From positions 1-49,863 of the forward strand of contig JAJYTC010000011.1 of NCBI GenBank assembly GCA_021793275.1: a stretch of DNA of 49,863 nt. Reading direction: 5' to 3'. Below the pieces are notes generated by a model. It was not told the DNA's origin, ran no database searches, and saw only the letters and a program-made list of their open reading frames with translations. A program made the translations under genes and the position numbers. This stretch comes from Deltaproteobacteria bacterium (GTDB taxonomy: Bacteria > Desulfobacterota > Syntrophobacteria > Syntrophobacterales > Syntrophobacteraceae). Every line of letters starts with the position of its first letter. Position 1 is the first letter of the stretch. Shown in pieces: positions 4,434 to 31,125 of this stretch.

Positions 4434-4932
4434 CTAGCTACCTCCTTGTTCTAGCCCAAAATTCACAATGTCTTATTTTTATCAGGCATTCACGACCTCC
4501 AAGCCAAAGTGACCCCGTTTATTTTCTCCCTTGCGGGCATATAGTACATGCCGTTATGAAATAATAGCGGTACCGCGCAGACATTATGCTATACATCGGA
4601 CAAACTAAACCATCTAAGTACCCTGCGTTCAGGAAGAAAATCTCTCTAGGCGAAATCCATGACGCCCCAAAATCGGGATGACTCCTTAGCCGATCTTGCC
4701 CCTGCATTCAGCAGCCGAAAAAAGATAAATAATATCGGTGGAACACCCCGCCATAATTGCATGCCGGCGGCGAAATCTTCTTGATCGGCGCCGGGATTCC
4801 CTATTCCACCATGGTACATGGGGTAAACCCAACATGAAGCGCCCATGGCCTTCAAGTATCAGCACCCCTTTGCTGGCCGGTTCATCTATTCCTTATTGTT
4901 CGATAGTGAATTAGTATGATTTCTGATATTCG
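4434..4932. other. Gene-poor stretch
   Basis: Apart from the ribosome binding site of the small minus-strand gene at its left edge, I see nothing supported. A 31-codon plus-strand frame at 4588-4683 (beginning MLYIGQTKPSKYP) may be a decayed fragment, and a 69-codon minus-strand frame at 4646-4855 has no family likeness. The block before the ligase stop at 4933 has no clear terminator. Confidence 0.35.
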
Positions 4933-6273
4933 CTATAAGGCATCGACCTTCCTTACGTGCACCCGCACGGCCTTGCCTTCATACCTGGGGAGTGTGCCTT
5001 CTTCCATGCAGGTGACACCGACGCGGATGCCGAGCCGGTCATGGATGGCATGCTGAACTCCTTTCGCCAGTTCCGCTGCGCTCGCTGTGCTCGTGCTCGC
5101 CCGCTCTATCTCGACGCTGAGCTGGTCGAGCACGCTGTCTTTATTGTCTATATAGATTTGCCATGCTTCCTTTACAGTCCCGGCCGTGCCGGCTATGATG
5201 TCCTCGATCTGCGTAGGATACACGATAACCCCCCTCACCTTCAGCATGTCGTCGGTCCGGCCGATGATGCGCCCGATCAGCGGGAGCCCCTTGCGTCCGC
5301 ACGGGCAGTCGTAGGGGTGTTCGGAGAACCGGACGAGGTCGCGGGTGCGCCACCGCACCACTGGGCTGGCTTCACGGTCAAGCGTCGTTACGATCAACTC
5401 CCCGATCTCGCCGGGCTTAACCGGAACGAGTGTTTCGGGGTCCACGATCTCGGTCATGACCGTATCATCATTGATGAGGTGCATCTCGTCGCGGTCGTGC
5501 GAGTAGGGGCAGGAGATCCCGAGAACGGGCCCTCCCGCTTCGGTCGTCCCGTAGATATTGTGGGCCATGAAGCCGTCGGGCATGGTGTCTTCCAAACGGT
5601 CCCGGAAGGGCTTGGAAATGGACTGGCCGCCAAATAGTCCAACCCGCAGCTTCCAGTCCCGTTTCGGGTCGATCCCCATCTTTTCCGCAGTATTGGCCAG
5701 GGTCATCAACCACAGGGGCGACATGGAACAGGCGGTATATTCATGATCGCGCAGCCACTCGGCCGCCAGTTCGCCGCGTCCCGGTCCGAGCGGGAAATTG
5801 ACCGTCCCGTAAGCGTTGAGCCCCATGTCCATGGCAATCCCTCCAATCCACAGGCCATAGCCGTAGCCCTGGTAGAACTTCTCTCCGGGCCGCACGCCGG
5901 TGGCTCTAAGGATCCGGCAGATCTGGTAGGGAATGAGGTGACCGAGGTCGCGTTCGCTCAGCCCGAACATCACCGGAAGCCCCGTGGTCCCCGATGTGGC
6001 GGTGAACCTTCGAACCTGGTCCAGGCCGACGGTAAGCATAGGGAAAGGGTAAAGATGTCGAAGACTTGATTTCTCCAGTATGGGAGCAGCGGCAAGTGAT
6101 TCATGGTCTTTTAGCTCCCACGGGTGCATCCCCACCGTGCGGAAGTGCGCCACCCAGGCCGGGCTTTGCGACAATCGCTTTCCCAAAGTCTCGATCTTCC
6201 GCCTCTGGATGGCCAAAATATCGCTGCGATCGAGGCATTCGATTTCGGGATGCTGAAAAGCAGGGCTGTTCAT
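4933..6273 (-). CDS. paaK: Phenylacetate-CoA ligase family (PaaK-type) acyl-CoA synthetase
   Basis: The 446-residue protein belongs to the adenylate-forming PaaK group, which joins aryl or arylacetic acids to CoA through an acyl-AMP. The phosphate-binding loop TATSGTTGLPV is at residues 91-101, the A5-like motif YGTTEAGGP near 240, and a CPCGRKG element followed by GRTDDMLKVRG leads into the C-terminal lid. Length is normal for PaaK. A clear AAGGAG precedes the ATG at 6273. It is the last gene of a minus-strand block with TetR, MeaB and a B12 mutase, and a palindrome 40 bases upstream matches one before the mutase gene. The acid it activates is not readable; phenylacetate, indoleacetate or another aryl acid are all possible. 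The symbol marks the family. Confidence 0.85.
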   Translation of the reverse strand: MNSPAFQHPEIECLDRSDILAIQRRKIETLGKRLSQSPAWVAHFRTVGMHPWELKDHESLAAAPILEKSSLRHLYPFPMLTVGLDQVRRFTATSGTTGLPVMFGLSERDLGHLIPYQICRILRATGVRPGEKFYQGYGYGLWIGGIAMDMGLNAYGTVNFPLGPGRGELAAEWLRDHEYTACSMSPLWLMTLANTAEKMGIDPKRDWKLRVGLFGGQSISKPFRDRLEDTMPDGFMAHNIYGTTEAGGPVLGISCPYSHDRDEMHLINDDTVMTEIVDPETLVPVKPGEIGELIVTTLDREASPVVRWRTRDLVRFSEHPYDCPCGRKGLPLIGRIIGRTDDMLKVRGVIVYPTQIEDIIAGTAGTVKEAWQIYIDNKDSVLDQLSVEIERASTSTASAAELAKGVQHAIHDRLGIRVGVTCMEEGTLPRYEGKAVRVHVRKVDAL

Positions 6274-6312
6274 TCCTGTTCTCCTTTCGATTAAGTTTTG
6301 GTCTCACAAAAA

Positions 6313-6335
6313 ATTATCCGTCCATTCGGACTAAT
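6313..6335. promoter_or_regulatory. Putative TetR operator in front of the CoA ligase
   Basis: The sequence ATTATCCG-6 bases-CGGACTAAT is an imperfect palindrome in the 106-base gap between tetR and the ligase gene. It shares the core TTATCCG-N-CCA-N-TCGGA with the perfect palindrome at 10249-10282. On the minus strand it covers GATAAT, a plausible -10 box. Binding by the adjacent TetR protein is an inference. Confidence 0.6.
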
Positions 6336-6352
6336 AAAACACGGAGTTTTCC

Positions 6353-6381
6353 AGCGTGGCGTGACAGAAAACCGCCACGCT
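6353..6381. terminator. 9-bp hairpin at the end of tetR
   Basis: Bases 6353-6361 (AGCGTGGCG) pair exactly with 6373-6381, leaving an 11-base loop. The arm overlaps the tetR stop codon. On the minus strand no T tract follows, so if it ends tetR transcription it is a weak terminator; on the plus strand ACTTTTTC follows. Confidence 0.4.
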
Positions 6382-6997
6382 ACTTTTTCAGCAAGGAATT
6401 GAAATCCGAAGCCAAAAGGCCTTCGACAAAGATATTTGAAGCGATTGCCGCTAGCTGGTGCGGATCGACGCCCTTGTCGGCTTCATACCAGGTGTAGGTC
6501 CAGTTTATCATCCCAAAAAAGAGCATGGCGACCGGACGCTGCACTCTATCCATAAAGTATAGCTCCGGTTTGATTCTCCCGATAAGGTTCTCTGTGAATT
6601 TGACCACCTGCCGCTCCAGGGCGACAATCTGCCGGCGTTCTTCTTCGGGAAGATTCTCGATCTCTTTCATCAGGACAGCATGCCGGCTCTTGGACCTACT
6701 GTAGGTGCGCATCAGTAGGAGCGAGAGCGTATGGAACTGTTCAACGGGGTCTTGAGATGAATGAAGGGCCGAAGCCATCTGATCGAACAGCATTTTGATG
6801 TGTTCCGAAAGCATCGTGTACAGGATTTCCCGCTTGGATTTGAAATAGTGGTAGATGCCTGATTTCGATAATCCGCTTGCCTCCGATATTTCCACAATGG
6901 AAGTATTTGAAAAGCCCTTAGCCGCGAACAGATCGGCTGCGTTGTCCATAATGGAAAGTTTGATCGATTCATAATCCTTTGACTGAATTCGAGCCAT
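6380..6997 (-). CDS. TetR/AcrR-family transcriptional regulator
   Basis: This 205-residue protein has the standard TetR layout: an N-terminal helix-turn-helix at about residues 24-52 (TSIVEISEASGLSKSGIYHYF, here given in part) and a larger helical ligand-binding domain. The recognition helix GLSKSGIYHYFKSK is typical of FadR/PsrA/PaaR-like repressors that sense acyl-CoA or aryl-CoA esters. It sits between the ligase and the meaB-mutase operon. Two related palindromes occur before the ligase (6313-6335) and the mutase operon (10249-10282), so it most likely represses both and is released by a CoA ester. Its own upstream gap (6998-7151) lacks that palindrome, suggesting it is not autoregulated through the same site. 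Confidence 0.88.
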   Translation of the reverse strand: MARIQSKDYESIKLSIMDNAADLFAAKGFSNTSIVEISEASGLSKSGIYHYFKSKREILYTMLSEHIKMLFDQMASALHSSQDPVEQFHTLSLLLMRTYSRSKSRHAVLMKEIENLPEEERRQIVALERQVVKFTENLIGRIKPELYFMDRVQRPVAMLFFGMINWTYTWYEADKGVDPHQLAAIASNIFVEGLLASDFNSLLKK

Positions 6998-7151
6998 TTA
7001 GCCTCTCCCTGTTGTAAAGAACATACGGTCGTAGAGCGCCAGGACGCTGAAGTGTTAACCGTGCGACCGGTTTTTGTCAAAAATAAACGGGTATGTTCTG
7101 ATGCGGCGCAGACTGTCGGCTCCGAAAAGTTTTCCCCTGCACTGGCTGAAG

Positions 7152-8117
7152 TCATGTACCCCCGGATAGAAATTCCCTGGCGAGTTCGTAGGGATCCTTT
7201 TCCCTTGCAAGAACCGGTTCCAGACGACTGTCCGGAAGCATTCCGTTCCCTGATTGAATATCGCGCTCCAGCATCTCGCGGACTATCTCCACGACCCGGT
7301 GCCTGAGGCGGTGGCGAAACCTTTGCCGAGACAGTTCCGGACTCTCGGCGAGAGTCCGGAATCTTTGCCCGATCTGGTCCACCAGTTCGTCCACGCCCTC
7401 TCCGACAAGGGATTGCGTCTTCACAACGGGAGGGCGCCACAACCGGTCGCCTTCCAGACGGAGACCCAGCCCAACCATCGCTTCGAGTTGCCGGCGAAAG
7501 CGGTCCGCATCCGGGTGATCGCTTTTGTTCACCACGTAGATGTCGCTTATTTCGTTTATCCCCGCCTTGGCCGCCTGGACGTCGTCACCTGCCATCGGCG
7601 TCTGCACCAGGACCACCACGGCCGCGTAGTGCATTATCTCGGTTTCGCTCTGTCCCGTTCCAACCGTCTCCACGATAATAAAGTCCCAGGGCATCGCACT
7701 CAGGACGGTAAGAACGTCCCCGGCCTTTTTGGCCAGCCCGCCGAGCCTGCCCCGTGAGGCCATGCTGCGGATGAAGACTTCCGGGTCCGTAGCGTGACCG
7801 ATCATCCGAAGCCGGTCCCCCAGGATTGCTCCGCCCGTGAACGGGCTCGACGGATCGACTGCAAGGACGGCCACCCGGTTTCCCCTGCGCCGCAAAACGC
7901 CGATGACCTTGGCGACGAGCGAGCTTTTTCCCGCCCCTGGCGGACCTGTGATTCCGATGATTTTTTCGGAGCCCCCGGCCATATAGAGTGCCCGGAGCAA
8001 CTCCACCAAGCCCGGCTCGCCCCGCTCGATGCGGCTGATCAACCGCGCGCAGGTGCGCACGCATCCCGAAGTCAGGGCATCGAGGATCAATTGGTCCTTT
8101 GCGCTCAGTTGGACCAT
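7152..8117 (-). CDS. meaB: MeaB/ArgK-family GTPase, mutase chaperone
   Basis: This is a G3E-family P-loop GTPase of 321 residues that protects B12-dependent mutases and gates loading of adenosylcobalamin. Visible features are the P-loop GITGPPGAGKSS (residues 55-66), the family block DPSSPFTGGAILGDR, a Walker-B-like ETVGTGQSE, and the guanine-specificity motif NKSD. Length agrees with MeaB. Its start overlaps the end of the cobalamin-binding subunit gene by 13 bases, so the two are coupled. As MeaB partners are usually encoded beside their mutase, this supports a real B12 mutase role for the two upstream genes. Confidence 0.92.
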   Translation of the reverse strand: MVQLSAKDQLILDALTSGCVRTCARLISRIERGEPGLVELLRALYMAGGSEKIIGITGPPGAGKSSLVAKVIGVLRRRGNRVAVLAVDPSSPFTGGAILGDRLRMIGHATDPEVFIRSMASRGRLGGLAKKAGDVLTVLSAMPWDFIIVETVGTGQSETEIMHYAAVVVLVQTPMAGDDVQAAKAGINEISDIYVVNKSDHPDADRFRRQLEAMVGLGLRLEGDRLWRPPVVKTQSLVGEGVDELVDQIGQRFRTLAESPELSRQRFRHRLRHRVVEIVREMLERDIQSGNGMLPDSRLEPVLAREKDPYELAREFLSGGT

Positions 8118-8518
8118 TTCCCGCCTCGCGTGCCGTTTAGGAATGTCTCCACTATCTTTTTCCCGGAACTGCCCGGAGGGAATACTTCCGCTATCCCTTT
8201 GTCTTTGAGTTCCACTACCTTGTGCTTCGGTATGTTGCCTCCGCAGAAGACCTTTACGTGCTTGAGGTCGTTTTTCTCCAGAAGCTCAACCAGTTCGACA
8301 ACCTGGTTGTAGTTCGACGCGTGCGAACTGATGCCGATCGCCTCGACGTCTTCATGCATCGCGGCCTGAACAATCATCTCCGGCGTCTGGTTGACCCCGA
8401 GATAGACCACCTCGATTCCCGCGTCCCTCAGAAGCCTTGCGACCACCTCGGCCCCCATTGTATGCCCGTCAAGCCCGATCATCGAAATAATGACCTTGAT
8501 TCGTTCCGAAACCTGCAT
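8105..8518 (-). CDS. Acyl-CoA mutase small subunit, cobalamin-binding
   Basis: The 137-residue protein is a stand-alone B12-binding domain of the methylmalonyl/isobutyryl-CoA mutase family. The signature LDGHTMG (Asp17, His19, Gly22) supplies the histidine that replaces dimethylbenzimidazole as lower cobalt ligand; GISSHAS and CGGNIP correspond to the S-x-L and GG elements, with the SxL leucine replaced by His. I start at the ATG at 8518 because GGAGG lies at ideal distance; the ATG at 8524 is too close to it. The large subunit gene ends 19 bases upstream and meaB overlaps its end, so the three form one operon. Confidence 0.9.
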   Translation of the reverse strand: MQVSERIKVIISMIGLDGHTMGAEVVARLLRDAGIEVVYLGVNQTPEMIVQAAMHEDVEAIGISSHASNYNQVVELVELLEKNDLKHVKVFCGGNIPKHKVVELKDKGIAEVFPPGSSGKKIVETFLNGTRGGKWSN

Positions 8519-8537
8519 GACCATACCTCCTCGGTTG

Positions 8538-10184
8538 CTAAGCGGCGGCGTGCGCGCTTGCCTCGCCGTCCAAAGCAAAAGGGCACTCGATGATGTGAAA
8601 CGGATCGTAGCTCAGGCCGCGCGCCATCCGGATGGTTCCCATAACCTCGCCCGCCGTGGCATAAGACTTGACGGCATCAATAATGGAAGGCATCAGGTTG
8701 AACCGGTCCCCTTTCCTGGCATCCCTATAGAGCTGAACTATTTTCTCGGTCAGATGAGGCAAGTTTCTTGTTTTTTTCCATTCCTGCATCCGGTGCGCGA
8801 TTTTTTCCGAATCCTCGCCCCGGACTTCCTGGATCGGGATCTCGAAATCCTCCCCGGGCGGAAGGACCAGGTGGTTCACTCCGACCACGAGGCGTTCGCC
8901 GTTTTCGATCTCCTGGAATTTTTTTATCGCTTCGTCTGTAAGCATCTTTTGAATATAGCCGGCTTCCAGGGCTTTGATCATTCCGCCAAACTCCTGGATT
9001 TTGCCGTAAATCTTATAAGCTTCCTCTTCGATTCGGTTCGTCAGGGTCTCCACAAAATAGGAGCCCGCCAGGGGATCGACCACGTCCGCCGCCCCTGTCT
9101 CGCAGGCCACGATGTGCTGGGTATTGAGGGACATCCTCGCTGCCAGGGCGGAGGGCTCGGCATGCGCGTTGTCCAAAGTGGCGTTGTCAAGCGCCGAGCA
9201 CCCGCCGATAACGCCTGCAAGCGTCTGGATTGCGCACCGGACGATGTTGTTCAGCGGCTGCTGGTAAGTCATCGTGCGTCCCGAGGTGTGGACACTCAGC
9301 AGCAGGTGGCAGGATTTGTCATCCTTCGCGCCGAATTCTTCCTTTGCCAGGCGCGCCCACATTCGGCGCAGCGCCCGCATCTTGGCGACTTCCTCGAAAA
9401 AGCGGCTCCCAATGCTGAACAGCTCGTAGGGGAGCTTTGCCGCCGTGTCGAATTCCAAGCCCCGCTCATTTACAAGCAGCCCGATGATCTCCTTGAGCAT
9501 CGACAATTCGACCGCGATCGCCTGCGCATTGTTCCCGCCGGATTCCTGAAAATGCTGGCTGATGATGCAGGCGCGCATCCGAATGTTGTTTCGTAGCACG
9601 TACTCCGCAGCATCGAGAAAGAGCTTCAAATTGAGGTCGAAAGGCTGGACATCGGTCTGGCCGAAGTAGTTCTCGAAGGGAGATTCCATCACGCTTCCGT
9701 GAATGAGGCCGATCTCGTCGCCCCGCTTTTCGGCAAGGGCGACCACGTAGGCAAGCCGCAGGGTGGTCGGGGCGCAGGAGCCAAGCAGGGTAATCGAGTG
9801 CCCGGTCAACGGAATGTCGTCCATCATCTCCTCGAATTCAAGAAATGAGCATCCTGGCCAGCCAAGGACTCCGGCTTCCTTGCGACCGAGGGGATGGTCA
9901 GGGTCGATGCAATCGGAAAACACCCGGTCGCTGATCACGCACAAGCCGCCGCGCTGACCCATTCGATAATACCTTTTTAACACTTTGTTGGTATCCTCGG
10001 AGCTGCCCAGTCCGGCAGTCATCCTCCGTGTCCACATGCGACTGCGGTATCCCTCGGGATAGTAGCCCCGGGTAAAGGGGTAGACCCCGGGATCTCCCAG
10101 GTCGCGACCGTAATCGACTCCTGCGATGTCTTCCGGTGTGTAGACGGATTTGATTTCGTATCCGTAATCCGTTTCTCTTTTCAT
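8538..10184 (-). CDS. B12-dependent acyl-CoA mutase large subunit, atypical active site
   Basis: The 548-residue protein is the TIM-barrel subunit of the methylmalonyl-CoA mutase superfamily (EIKSVYTPED at 10-19, YPFTRG at 35-40, DPLAGSYFVE in the second half). It lacks a B12 domain, which is the separate gene downstream. By ungapped alignment from memory with the Propionibacterium enzyme, the catalytic His244 is kept (His211), but Tyr89 becomes Thr56, carboxylate-binding Arg207 becomes Gly175, Tyr243 becomes Gln210, and His328/Gln330 become Ser297/His299. The patterns of isobutyryl-CoA and 2-hydroxyisobutyryl-CoA mutases do not fit either, so the substrate is unknown and need not be methylmalonyl-CoA. 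The start at 10184 follows GGAGGG; an upstream in-frame codon at 10316 would include the operator palindrome. Confidence 0.88.
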   Translation of the reverse strand: MKRETDYGYEIKSVYTPEDIAGVDYGRDLGDPGVYPFTRGYYPEGYRSRMWTRRMTAGLGSSEDTNKVLKRYYRMGQRGGLCVISDRVFSDCIDPDHPLGRKEAGVLGWPGCSFLEFEEMMDDIPLTGHSITLLGSCAPTTLRLAYVVALAEKRGDEIGLIHGSVMESPFENYFGQTDVQPFDLNLKLFLDAAEYVLRNNIRMRACIISQHFQESGGNNAQAIAVELSMLKEIIGLLVNERGLEFDTAAKLPYELFSIGSRFFEEVAKMRALRRMWARLAKEEFGAKDDKSCHLLLSVHTSGRTMTYQQPLNNIVRCAIQTLAGVIGGCSALDNATLDNAHAEPSALAARMSLNTQHIVACETGAADVVDPLAGSYFVETLTNRIEEEAYKIYGKIQEFGGMIKALEAGYIQKMLTDEAIKKFQEIENGERLVVGVNHLVLPPGEDFEIPIQEVRGEDSEKIAHRMQEWKKTRNLPHLTEKIVQLYRDARKGDRFNLMPSIIDAVKSYATAGEVMGTIRMARGLSYDPFHIIECPFALDGEASAHAAA

Positions 10185-10248
10185 CAGCAACCCTCCACAT
10201 CCGCGACTGAAGGCGGCCGTGCCGAATTGAGGAAAGCGGCGGCGGCCC

Positions 10249-10282
10249 GAATTAATTATCCGACCAATCGGATAATTAATTC
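10249..10282. promoter_or_regulatory. Perfect 34-bp palindrome, putative TetR operator
   Basis: Bases 10249-10263 are the exact reverse complement of 10268-10282 around a CCAA centre. The core TTATCCGACCAATCGGATAA matches the weaker palindrome before the ligase gene. It lies immediately downstream of a good -10 box for the minus strand and 65 bases before the mutase start codon, where a bound repressor would block transcription. Confidence 0.75.
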
Positions 10283-10284
10283 CC

Positions 10285-10312
10285 ATCTTATCCACCTGTT
10301 CAGCTTTGTCAA
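10285..10312 (-). promoter_or_regulatory. Sigma-70-type promoter of the mutase operon
   Basis: On the minus strand TTGACA (10312-10307) is followed after 16 bases by TAAGAT (10290-10285). The -35 box is a perfect consensus; the -10 box matches 4 of 6. The palindrome at 10249-10282 begins two bases beyond the -10 box and would cover the transcription start. Confidence 0.6.
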
Positions 10313-10399
10313 CCAAAAAAGTTGCGCCCAGCTTGCCAATTCAGAAACCCTAAAAAGGGATCGTTGCACAACCCACTAAGATTTCAATATGTTGGGATG

Positions 10400-10551
10400 C
10401 ATTGCACGACAACGGTTGCAAACTATCTGATCGACTGCACGATCGCTACACGATTCAGATCGCGGTGGGCTGGAATGATGCCCGCCTGAATCGGTTCCAC
10501 ATCCATGGCCAGGGCTATGGCGTTTATTATGATGGAGGATCGAAAGGTTAA
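10400..10551 (+). pseudogene. Remnant of a pRiA4b ORF-3-like protein
   Basis: A frame ending at TAA 10551 encodes LHDRYTIQIAVGWNDARLNR followed by FHIHGQGYGV. This matches the core of the plasmid pRiA4b ORF-3-like family (LHD...IQ-x-A-x-GW-x-x-x-HL-x-x-F-x-I-x-G-x-x-YG), which often accompanies mobile elements. The N-terminal part is missing and no start is visible, so it is a decayed fragment. The left boundary is approximate. Confidence 0.55.
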
Positions 10552-10642
10552 CCCGGATGACTTCTCTCGCCGCTCAGTCGATTCCCGCCTGCCGCAATAC
10601 GCGAAGGGCGACCGCGATTGGCTGTTTTCGCTTTGAGGGGAT

Positions 10643-10836
10643 GTGAAATTTAGAATTCAATTGATCACCCAGTGCGACATTGGTGAAGCGAACCATTAAC
10701 CGGCCTGCCTGGAATGGGAAACCGAAGGGCTCGAAGCCATCGGTATGGCTTTGGTTGAAGCTGAAGCGTTGCTGGCCACTCTGTAAAAACAGGCGGCTGG
10801 GCAACAAATTGCGGCTTACCTGGCAGGTCGGAAGAA
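10643..10836 (+). pseudogene. Remnant of an ISKra4-like transposase N-terminus
   Basis: From GTG 10643 one frame reads through two in-frame stops (TAA at 10697 and 10785) and encodes GLEAIGMALVEAEALLATL, stop, KQAAGQQIAAYLAGR. This resembles the helical N-terminal region of ISKra4-family transposases, where a similar L-x-L-x-E-x-K-x-LL-x-x-LQ...QQ-x-A-x-x-L pattern precedes a CxxC zinc finger. The zinc finger and catalytic domain are absent. The assignment rests on remembered family patterns. Confidence 0.5.
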
Positions 10837-10841
10837 GCACG

Positions 10842-10875
10842 GTAGGTTGGGGTGAGCCGAAAGCGAACCCCAACA
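10842..10875. repeat. Interspersed palindromic repeat, GTAGGTTGGG type
   Basis: A 34-base element with arms GTTGGGGT and ACCCCAAC around a GC-rich loop. A relative lies at 19170-19202 and a shorter-armed version is duplicated at 46542-46649. The rest of 10876-11124 shows no gene; it holds a G-run (10962-10969) and unremarkable sequence. Confidence 0.6.
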
Positions 10876-11124
10876 CTGACCCCACCCAAGGCCCATTGGG
10901 CTGTCACCCAGGGCATCCGGAAAACACCCTATAGGGGTCGCAGGTTCTGCTCCCCCTGCGGGGGGGGTTACCAGGCGTTCGTCGGCGATAATCGCGGTGG
11001 TCTCAGTCTTCCGATCTAGAACAAATTCTGAACAAATCTACCGTGGTCACCCGGAGTTGAAATTCCCGGCAGGTTTAACGGACCGGCAGACCGGAAGGCG
11101 GCTGTGGACGTTGCGGCTTTCCTC

Positions 11125-11607
11125 TCAGGACAGTTTGCGCCGTTTTCTCAAGCGGTCCATTTCTCGGGTCTCTTCTTTCCTCTTTAACGTTTCCCTCTTG
11201 TCATATTCCTTTTTGCCCCTGGCAAGGGCGATCTCCACTTTCGCCTTCCCTTCCTTGAAATAAAGCTTGAGTGGGACCAGTGAAAAACCGCGTTCCTGAG
11301 TTTTGCCCAGCAGTTTTTTGATTTCCGCCCTGTGGAGAAGAAGCTTTCTTACCCGTTCGGGGTCGTGATTATCGAATGAAGCGTGGGAATAGGGACTGAT
11401 GTGGAGGCCGAAGAGAAACACTTCGTTCCGCTTGACCCTGGCGTAGCTGTCCTTGAGGTTGGCCCGCCCTTCGCGCAGCGATTTCACTTCCGTGCCGAGC
11501 AAAACTAAACCGGCTTCGAACTTTTCACCAATTTCAAAGTCGTGATAGGCCTTTTTGTTTTGCGCGATCAATTTAATTCTTTCTGTCTGGTTGACGGCTT
11601 TAGACAT
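11125..11607 (-). CDS. smpB: SsrA-binding protein SmpB
   Basis: SmpB binds tmRNA and delivers it to stalled ribosomes for trans-translation. The 160-residue protein has the family hallmarks: [20 protein letters not shown] near residues 17-36, the block [19 protein letters not shown], the HISPYSHA segment, and the basic C-terminal tail ending in RLRKRRKLS that enters the decoding centre. Length is typical. The tmRNA gene ssrA is not visible nearby. It is separated from ptsI by 51 bases and may be read through from it. Confidence 0.97.
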
Positions 11608-11658
11608 ATTCGGGAGGACTTCCTCGCAATTCTATTTTATCGCATCAGCGGCCCCGGT

Positions 11659-13482
11659 TCAGGAACCGGATTTGTTCGGGACCGCAAGCGTTGAATTTCC
11701 TGTCCAGTTCGGATCGAATACGTGAAATTCTTCCGGAAATTTCCTCATCACCATCTTACTTACGGCTTGTTCTATTTCCGATGCGGTCCTCATGTGAATC
11801 ACCTGGTTTGCGAACCGGCAGCATTCCTTCATGGAGGAACGCCGGATGAGGTTCTTGACGCGGGGAAGCGCCACCGGGTTCATGCTGAAGGAATCGATTT
11901 TGAGGCCCAGCAAAATCGGCACGTACAAGGGCTCTCCTGCCATCTCTCCGCACAACGCTACCGGGATGCCCGCTTCATGGCCCGCATCCACAGCCTGTTT
12001 GATGAACCTTAGAACGCCCGGGTGTAGGGCCTCGTAAAGATAGGCGACATGCTCGTTCGATCTGTCTATCCCAATGGCGTACTGTATGAGGTCGTTTGTG
12101 CCGATGCTGAAAAAATCCACCTCCTGGGCCAGCAGATCGGCCATTGCCACTGCCGAAGGGACCTCTATCATCGCTCCGAAGGGCATATCCTCGTCGAAAG
12201 GGATGCGTTTTGCGGACAGCTCCGCCTGGACCTCTTTGAAGATCCGCCTGGCCTGATAAATTTCCTCCATGCCCGAAATGAGAGGCAACATGAGGCGGAT
12301 ATTGCGGGCGACCGCACTCGCCCGCAGAATTGCCCTGAGCTGGGTCTTGAATATTTCCTTGTAATGCAGGCAAAGCCGGATGGAGCGCAGTCCAAGGGCA
12401 GGATTGGCTTCCTCGAGCGTGGGACACCAGGAGGTGAGCTTTTCGGCGCCCAGGTCGAGCGTTCGGATAGTGACCTGCGAAGGCGCCATGAGTTCCGCCA
12501 AATCGTGGTAATCTCTGTAGAGAGATTCTTCATCGGGCAGTTCCACCCGATTCATGAAAAAAAATTCCGTCCTGTAAAGCCCGATGGCTTCTGCTCCGTT
12601 GTCTTTGGCCGCTACGATCTCCTCGACAGCCTCAATATTTGCCTCGGCGCTTACCCTGTGGCCGTCGGAGGTTTGGGCGGGCAGATGAGCATGCCGGCTG
12701 ATCTGTTTGAGGTAAGCCGAGATTTCATCCTGGCGGTTTGTATAAAAACGCAATTCGCTTTCGCCGGGGTTTATAATAATTATTCCAGTCCTGCCGTCGA
12801 CGATGATGAAGTCATTATTGGAGATGAGCCGGGCGGCATTTTCCACACCCGTCACGGCCGGTATTCCCAGCGAACGGGCGACAATGGAGGTGTGGGAGAC
12901 GCTTCCCCCGATTTCGGTCACTATGCCAAGCGTCCGCCCTGCCTGTAACTGGATGGCGTCTGCCGGCGAAAGATCGTGGGCGACTATCACGGCGCGTTCG
13001 TGGAGGTGCTCGAGGTTGGTGTGGTTCTGCCCGGCCAGGATGCGGATCACACGGTCTCCCGCCGCGTTTACGTCGGCGATCCTGCTTTTTGCATATTCAT
13101 CGTTGCTGAGGCTGTTGAAAAGTTCTTTGGCTTTCCGCAGCGATTTTATGACCGCAAGCTGAGCGTTGGTGCGCTCTTCTTTTATATAGCGCAGAGATTC
13201 GTCGTATATCGACGGGTCCCTAAGGATCATCTGCTGCACTTCGAGAAGCCTGGCATGTTCTCTAAATTCGGTCTTGATGCTTTTCTTGATGGCCTCCAGG
13301 TCCGCTTCGGCCTCGGCCACGGCTTTTTCGAACCGCTTGCATTCTTCGGCGACGGCCTGCTCGCCGAAAAGCCGGTAGCGAGGCACGGGAATACGTCCGC
13401 GCTCCAGCAGAAACGCCTTCCCAATGGCGATTCCCGGCGCCGCCCCTATCCCCCTGATGGTCAATGAGGAATGGTCGTTCAT
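11659..13482 (-). CDS. ptsI: PTS Enzyme I, phosphoenolpyruvate-protein phosphotransferase
   Basis: Enzyme I takes phosphate from PEP and passes it to HPr. The phosphorylated histidine is His197 in GGSVSHTSIVARS; the PEP-binding barrel carries GLYRTEFFFM, GTNDLIQYAIGIDRSNE and the catalytic CGEMAG. At 607 residues it is slightly longer than the usual 570-580 because of a C-terminal extension after about residue 580. It follows ptsH with an 80-base gap. No sugar-specific EII genes are in the window, so this looks like the regulatory or single-EIIA style PTS common in this phylum. Confidence 0.96.
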   Translation of the reverse strand: MNDHSSLTIRGIGAAPGIAIGKAFLLERGRIPVPRYRLFGEQAVAEECKRFEKAVAEAEADLEAIKKSIKTEFREHARLLEVQQMILRDPSIYDESLRYIKEERTNAQLAVIKSLRKAKELFNSLSNDEYAKSRIADVNAAGDRVIRILAGQNHTNLEHLHERAVIVAHDLSPADAIQLQAGRTLGIVTEIGGSVSHTSIVARSLGIPAVTGVENAARLISNNDFIIVDGRTGIIIINPGESELRFYTNRQDEISAYLKQISRHAHLPAQTSDGHRVSAEANIEAVEEIVAAKDNGAEAIGLYRTEFFFMNRVELPDEESLYRDYHDLAELMAPSQVTIRTLDLGAEKLTSWCPTLEEANPALGLRSIRLCLHYKEIFKTQLRAILRASAVARNIRLMLPLISGMEEIYQARRIFKEVQAELSAKRIPFDEDMPFGAMIEVPSAVAMADLLAQEVDFFSIGTNDLIQYAIGIDRSNEHVAYLYEALHPGVLRFIKQAVDAGHEAGIPVALCGEMAGEPLYVPILLGLKIDSFSMNPVALPRVKNLIRRSSMKECCRFANQVIHMRTASEIEQAVSKMVMRKFPEEFHVFDPNWTGNSTLAVPNKSGS

Positions 13483-31090: not shown

Positions 31091-31125
31091 AGCGAAAAGC
31101 CCCGCGTTTGGCGGGGCTTTTCGCT
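31091..31125. terminator. Bidirectional intrinsic terminator
   Basis: A perfect 15-bp stem (31091-31105 with 31111-31125) and 5-base loop. The arms contain AAAAGCCCCGC and GCGGGGCTTTT, so each strand has a GC stem next to a T run. It lies between the convergent cupredoxin-like and dodecin genes and can serve both. Confidence 0.9.

Follow-up and report, generated by a model that had tools for sequence, protein, structure and literature searches.

A 34-bp palindrome at a B12-dependent acyl-CoA mutase promoter is very probably the operator of a TetR regulator encoded in the same gene row

The 49,863-nucleotide stretch of DNA analysed here, termed the window, carries a row of genes for a B12-dependent acyl-CoA mutase, its chaperone, a TetR-family regulator and an acyl-CoA ligase (Table 1), together with a palindrome at the mutase promoter that is very probably the operator of that regulator. 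We read it so because matching sites precede the same mutase gene in related clusters elsewhere. Judging from sequence, it is highly likely that the TetR represses both the mutase-B12 subunit-MeaB-TetR operon and the ligase gene, and an acyl-CoA made by the ligase would be what releases it. The supports for this switch are the presence of two sites, the match of their motif with sites of TetR relatives, the placement after a −10 hexamer, and the gene order. The switch is of an ordinary kind in a less ordinary setting, being wired to a B12 mutase; a search of open-licence literature listings found no paper on such TetR-operator wiring.

Table 1. Features of the mutase-ligase gene row, in window coordinates
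Feature	Position	Strand	Basis
−35 hexamer TTGACA of mutase promoter	10307..10312	−	promoter scan
−10 hexamer TAAGAT of mutase promoter	10285..10290	−	promoter scan
Operator 1 (putative)	10249..10282	−	palindrome of 34 bp with perfect 15-bp arms around 4 nt; motif matrix 20.2 bits
Acyl-CoA mutase large (catalytic) subunit, methylmalonyl-CoA mutase family	8538..10184	−	PF01642 2.7e-122; best solved relative 4r3u
B12-binding small subunit	8105..8518	−	PF02310, TIGR00640 (on longer ORF 8105-8578)
MeaB-type GTPase, mutase chaperone	7152..8117	−	PF03308, TIGR00750
TetR-family regulator, probable binder of both operators	6380..6997	−	PF00440, PF17932; nearest solved chain 3ccy, 155 bits
Operator 2 (putative), before ligase gene	6307..6340	−	imperfect palindrome; motif matrix 21.7 bits
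PaaK-like AMP-forming acyl-CoA ligase	4933..6273	−	PF14535, PF00501; TIGR02155 far under cut-off

A repeat search confirmed the perfect 34-bp palindrome described in the first-pass annotation, with its 15-bp arms and CCAA centre: the arms (10249-10263 and 10268-10282) are 15 nt long and 100% complementary, and the 4 nt between them read CCAA on the + strand and TTGG on the − strand. When the window was shuffled 100 times with dinucleotides preserved, perfect arms of at least 15 with a spacer of at most 10 never appeared; for arms of 12 or longer the count over all 100 shuffles was six, nested registers included. Two more perfect inverted repeats whose arms reach 12 lie in the window, one within the MeaB gene (7335-7361) and one at 31092-31124. 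Such company is what could be said for a palindrome arisen by chance, but the failure of shuffles to yield 15-bp arms, the independent matrix match and the conserved position make coincidence hardly credible.

The same annotation had set the palindrome two bases past the −10 of a TTGACA-16-TAAGAT promoter, and on the − strand this is so (hexamers at 10312-10307 and 10290-10285), the two intervening bases both being G. Taken on its own the promoter match is not significant (6 in 4500-11700 versus 3.9 ± 2.0 in shuffles); placed directly before the operator it is, its score being reached in 2 of 2000 shuffles. Transcription is expected to start about 7 nt past the −10, hence inside operator 1. 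We take the mutase to start at ATG 10184 (protein MKRETDYGY...), which has GGAGGG ahead of it and is the start used in two related loci, L005 and L006, rather than at TTG 10316, where the mechanical ORF begins; the palindrome is therefore intergenic. For the B12-binding subunit the ATG yielding MQVSERIK was chosen.

The motif was defined from other bacteria. Loci of TetR relatives were fetched from genome contigs (best 80 of 270), and sites with the core CC(G/A)A-N4-T(C/T)GG were noted near the genes of these clusters, 19 of them being listed in loci L005-L042 and L047. Thirteen of the 19 make up a symmetric 34-bp matrix that holds zero window sequence; six near copies from L029-L031 were left out of it, as were the matches of L043-L046, L048 and L049. 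On the window the two operators take the first two places (Table 1), with third place at 8.3 bits. When the two seeds from L005 are removed from the matrix the same two sites still lead, at 20.2 and 18.3 bits, with third place at 10.7. The matrix maximum over 100 shuffles of the window was 19.6 bits (mean 9.4), a value that operator 1 barely exceeds. The window sites stand at about 20 bits, whereas in most ligase-linked loci the best site reaches 30-50. The shortfall arises at positions 9-10 and in one half of the centre, which deviate from consensus; at positions 9-10 three of the four half-sites have TA rather than AG.

Across L005-L042 and L047, 83 positions reach at least 20 bits (seeds and some overlapping registers counted), distributed over 32 of the 39 loci, and the remaining 7 have no position reaching 20 bits. 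More distant TetR loci (L051-L084, 478,582 bases) gave no match of at least 15 bits, and seven loci of TetR relatives outside both the test and control sets (L043-L046, L048-L050) gave nothing above 10.4 bits. On these scans the full 34-bp motif accompanies relatives of the window TetR and is missing beside more distant TetRs. Patterns with exact arms matched only the window palindrome and a few loci. In the window's own genome, TTATCCGNNCNNTCGGANNA without mismatch finds only the two window sites; with at most two mismatches the counts are 15+26 versus 17+22 for the control, that is, no enrichment, and the best score among the other own-genome loci scanned (L088, L090-L099, L102-L110) is 13.8 bits, in L096. 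The idea of a repressor site with the TetR at 6380-6997 as candidate binder thus draws support from a held-out matrix, as a prediction from sequence.

Placement at the promoter is likewise conserved. The mutase was searched (E up to 1e-100) in the genomes of 20 fetched loci and is present in three: those of L005 (79% identical), L006 (74%) and L008 (77%). In L005 and L006 (Rhodospirillaceae; TetR 65% and 61%) the genes for TetR, ligase, mutase, B12 subunit and MeaB lie together. The mutase copy of the L008 genome, L116, was fetched after the matrix was built, and has one strong site, 29.8 bits, at the mutase promoter; this is a prediction borne out on data new to the matrix. Beside the TTGACA-16-TAAGAT of the window, the promoters read TTGACG-17-TATAGT (L005), TTGACA-18-TATAGT (L006) and TTGACG-16-TATGTT (L116), and in all four mutase genes the best promoter match ends −1 to +2 bases from the 34-bp frame. 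Its score was reached in 0, 0 and 9 of 2000 shuffles of upstream DNA for L005, L006 and L116, beside the 2 for the window. The arrangement that the annotation had called classical for a repressor is thus kept, as far as sequence can indicate it, in four of four orthologous mutase genes found.

Conservation also bears on whether the palindrome might act in the transcript, the mutase mRNA bearing at its 5′ end a 15-bp hairpin for stability or translational control. The transcribed strand does form a perfect stem, and the leader is more stable than most shuffles (z −2.25, 4 of 200 equally good). The fold, however, is lost along the series of equivalent sites, from −16.9 kcal/mol in the window through −14.6 (L005) and −10.3 (L006) to −1.6 (L116), and three ligase sites that all score as the DNA motif fold at only −7.5 to −3.1 kcal/mol. 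Moreover the site at 6787 in L005 contains TTGACA and by eye would cover both −35 and −10, hence would be untranscribed, and no T-run follows the window stem. The DNA motif is conserved and the RNA hairpin is not, which makes an RNA role very unlikely; since the hairpin is not kept while the sequence motif is, the perfection of the window palindrome is a local feature. No cobalamin riboswitch turned up, Rfam giving no match at gathering score in the window and none up to E = 1 in the leader (10150-10700). No tRNA or tmRNA gene was found in the window.

The second site, absent from the first-pass annotation, is the best window match of the matrix and falls in the gap that separates the TetR stop from the beginning of the ligase gene; L005 and L006 each have a site, at 8661 in both, in the same position. 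With operator 2 before the ligase gene and operator 1 before the mutase gene, a site stands ahead of both. A clear −35 is lacking at operator 2, where the promoter scan has no entry. At the TetR stop codon lies a GC-rich inverted repeat (6354-6380, GCGTGGCG / CGCCACGC) without a T-run, which may partly separate the TetR from the ligase transcript. Between the MeaB and TetR genes there are 154 bp, so a promoter of its own is possible for the TetR gene. The regulator has an N-terminal helix-turn-helix (PF00440, 1.5e-14) and a TetR-like C-terminal domain (PF17932, 3.2e-20).

From these sequences we infer binding, repression, co-transcription and autoregulation, as follows. When inducer is lacking, a TetR dimer (or, given the 34-bp length, a pair of dimers) would sit on 10249-10282, over the expected transcription start, and block the promoter of the mutase, B12 subunit, MeaB and TetR genes; the TetR gene being in the blocked operon, the repressor would limit its own synthesis. 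Bound at 6307-6340 it would repress the ligase gene. On entry of the acid substrate, basal ligase would make the CoA ester, which would bind the C-terminal domain of TetR, so that the repressor comes off the DNA and both ligase and mutase are produced. The inducer would be an acyl-CoA, probably an aryl- or branched-acyl-CoA, a proposal that follows from the control of the ligase by the same regulator and from an analogy with PaaR, taken up below. We give little probability to the same TetR and sites working by activation, or by obstructing elongation as a roadblock instead of occluding the promoter. Operator 1 begins past the −10 and covers the start region, not the −35, as a roadblock or activator reading could use, but it is typically repressors that bind at core promoters. 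The studied PaaR, too, is a repressor (PMC2770484).

PaaR of Burkholderia cenocepacia and Thermus resembles the proposed switch in being a TetR with a CCGA-N4-TCGG core at the promoter and a PaaK ligase in the pathway, as described in PMC2770484 and PMC9493321, where the Thermus consensus differs. In B. cenocepacia this TetR repressor (BCAL0210) requires ACCGACCGGTCGGT, between the paaA −35 and −10, for repression (PMC2770484); according to a review it is released by 'compound II' (PMC9493321), which we take to be phenylacetyl-CoA from the title of the Thermus PaaR paper cited there. The window core, TCCGA-CCAA-TCGGA, has CCGA-N4-TCGG in common with the PaaR site ACCGACCGGTCGGT and differs from it in flanking base and centre, and the target of the window TetR is a B12 mutase, unlike that of PaaR. 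The likeness is drawn from the described operator and pathway.

Homologues of PaaA adjoin many of the more distant TetR relatives in tblastn maps, and a motif site lies just before PaaA in L009, L024, L036, L040, L042 and L112; in the last of these (Novosphingobium) paaA-E are annotated beside the TetR, and the site just upstream of paaA scores 18.5 bits. The window's own genome (97% complete) has no PaaA match at E up to 1e-10, with a query that, in the separate tblastn maps, matched PaaA homologues in many loci, and on this ground the identification of the window TetR as PaaR was rejected. In a tree of 35 TetRs, the window, L005 and L006 proteins form one clade (support 100/99), lying apart from a dioxygenase-linked group and from the regulators beside paa genes, with deeper joins unsure because of long branches. 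In Inhella and another Burkholderiales MAG (L043-L046 and L048, about 2430-2680) the palindrome CGACCGACCGGTCGGTC, or one near it, occurs 5-6 kb before the TetR gene, ahead of genes for an enoyl-CoA hydratase and a PaaA homologue; these palindromes are probable PaaR operators.

The exact PaaR core ACCGACCGGTCGGT occurs once only in the window's own genome (L093 1800-1813, that is, contig C114 2480-2493), just before a different TetR gene whose product shares 32% identity with the window TetR across residues 8-99, and is probably that TetR's own operator. Its presence beside another TetR, with the missing PaaA, weakens the link to PaaR. It also means that the CCGA-N4-TCGG core is not diagnostic for the window TetR; the short core being common to different TetRs, the association with the window TetR lies in the 34-bp motif. 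This bears on whether the palindrome could instead serve a regulator whose gene lies in another part of the genome. TetR relatives of low identity (20-33%) do lie on seven other contigs, and the C114 site, just before its TetR gene, has a core resembling the window's, but it scores only 8.2 bits because its flanks differ. The 34-bp motif, moreover, goes with relatives of the window TetR and is absent beside distant ones, no site is present at L088, the best paralogue locus, and TetR, ligase, mutase and sites stay together in L005 and L006. A regulator from outside the row is thus an improbable binder, and we retain the TetR of the gene row.

Among solved structures the mutase aligns best with 2-hydroxyisobutyryl-CoA mutase (4r3u). 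Operons for that enzyme, like the window, encode its large and small subunits as separate proteins and add a MeaB-type protein and a PaaK-like synthetase. One such synthetase, 6hdw, matches the window ligase at 111 bits; the best solved relatives of this ligase are phenylacetate-CoA ligases. At the positions aligned with Ile90 and Asp117 of 2-hydroxyisobutyryl-CoA mutase the window enzyme has Thr and Ile, and on these two residues that identity was rejected; its relatives L114, L115 and L116 likewise read MTAGLG and CVISD there.

Besides L005 and L006, 24 further loci have a TetR (36-42%) and a ligase 57-60% identical to the window's. TetR-ligase-Rieske clusters are found in 21 loci (L007, L014-L023, L026-L033, L037 and L047; Xanthobacter, Bradyrhizobium and others). 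Like the window, they have a ligase of 57-60% identity (20 of 21; none seen in L027) and a TetR of 36-41%, with motif sites before the ligase or TetR gene and often, where the stretch reaches, ahead of genes for Rieske, reductase or Liv transporter proteins. A ring-hydroxylating dioxygenase sets them apart from the window. The mutase (E up to 1e-100) occurs in 0 of 13 searched genomes with a Rieske locus and in 3 of 7 without Rieske at the locus, being absent in L010, L011, L025 and L034. The stretches of L005, L006 and L008 (up to about 16.6 kb) hold no Rieske homologue, a local absence only. In a Xanthobacteraceae MAG (L008 129-1470; L116) the mutase set adjoins the Liv-ligase-TetR cluster, bridging both cluster types.

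A 2-arylpropionate substrate, by analogy with the ibuprofen pathway, is not claimed, since ligases, condensing enzymes and motif do not match. The L028 Rieske subunit does share 43% identity with a dioxygenase alpha subunit on plasmid pIBU218, but for the ligases the figure is only 23%, across a portion of the sequence, no alignment is obtained between the putative condensing enzymes, and the scan there gave no motif site (best 3.9 bits).

Of 55 genomes of the window's class, one has the mutase (E up to 1e-150), and that is the genome of the window itself. A TetR search of 59 genomes including that one (E up to 1e-20) gave, beyond the window TetR, three matches at 29-30% identity, of which one lies in the window's genome. 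This near absence of the mutase and of a close TetR from other genomes of the class suggests that the cluster was acquired from another lineage.

Through the operators, the ligase, the mutase with its chaperone, and the repressor would form a single unit that probably responds to an acyl-CoA. It is a tentative thought, and one we hold to be rather doubtful, that a TetR lineage akin to PaaR and to the ligase-dioxygenase regulators has been re-used for a B12 acyl-CoA mutase, and that the mutase, where present, may replace the Rieske dioxygenase controlled by relatives of this TetR-ligase pair. If this were true, the mutase would carry out an oxygen-independent first step, acting on the aryl- or branched-acyl-CoA that the dioxygenase uses or on a similar one; the operator pair would mark the substrate class, and the inducer of the TetR would reveal the mutase substrate. 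If a CoA ester were found to lift the TetR off its 34-bp operator, it would hint at what an uncharacterised clade of B12 mutases acts on.
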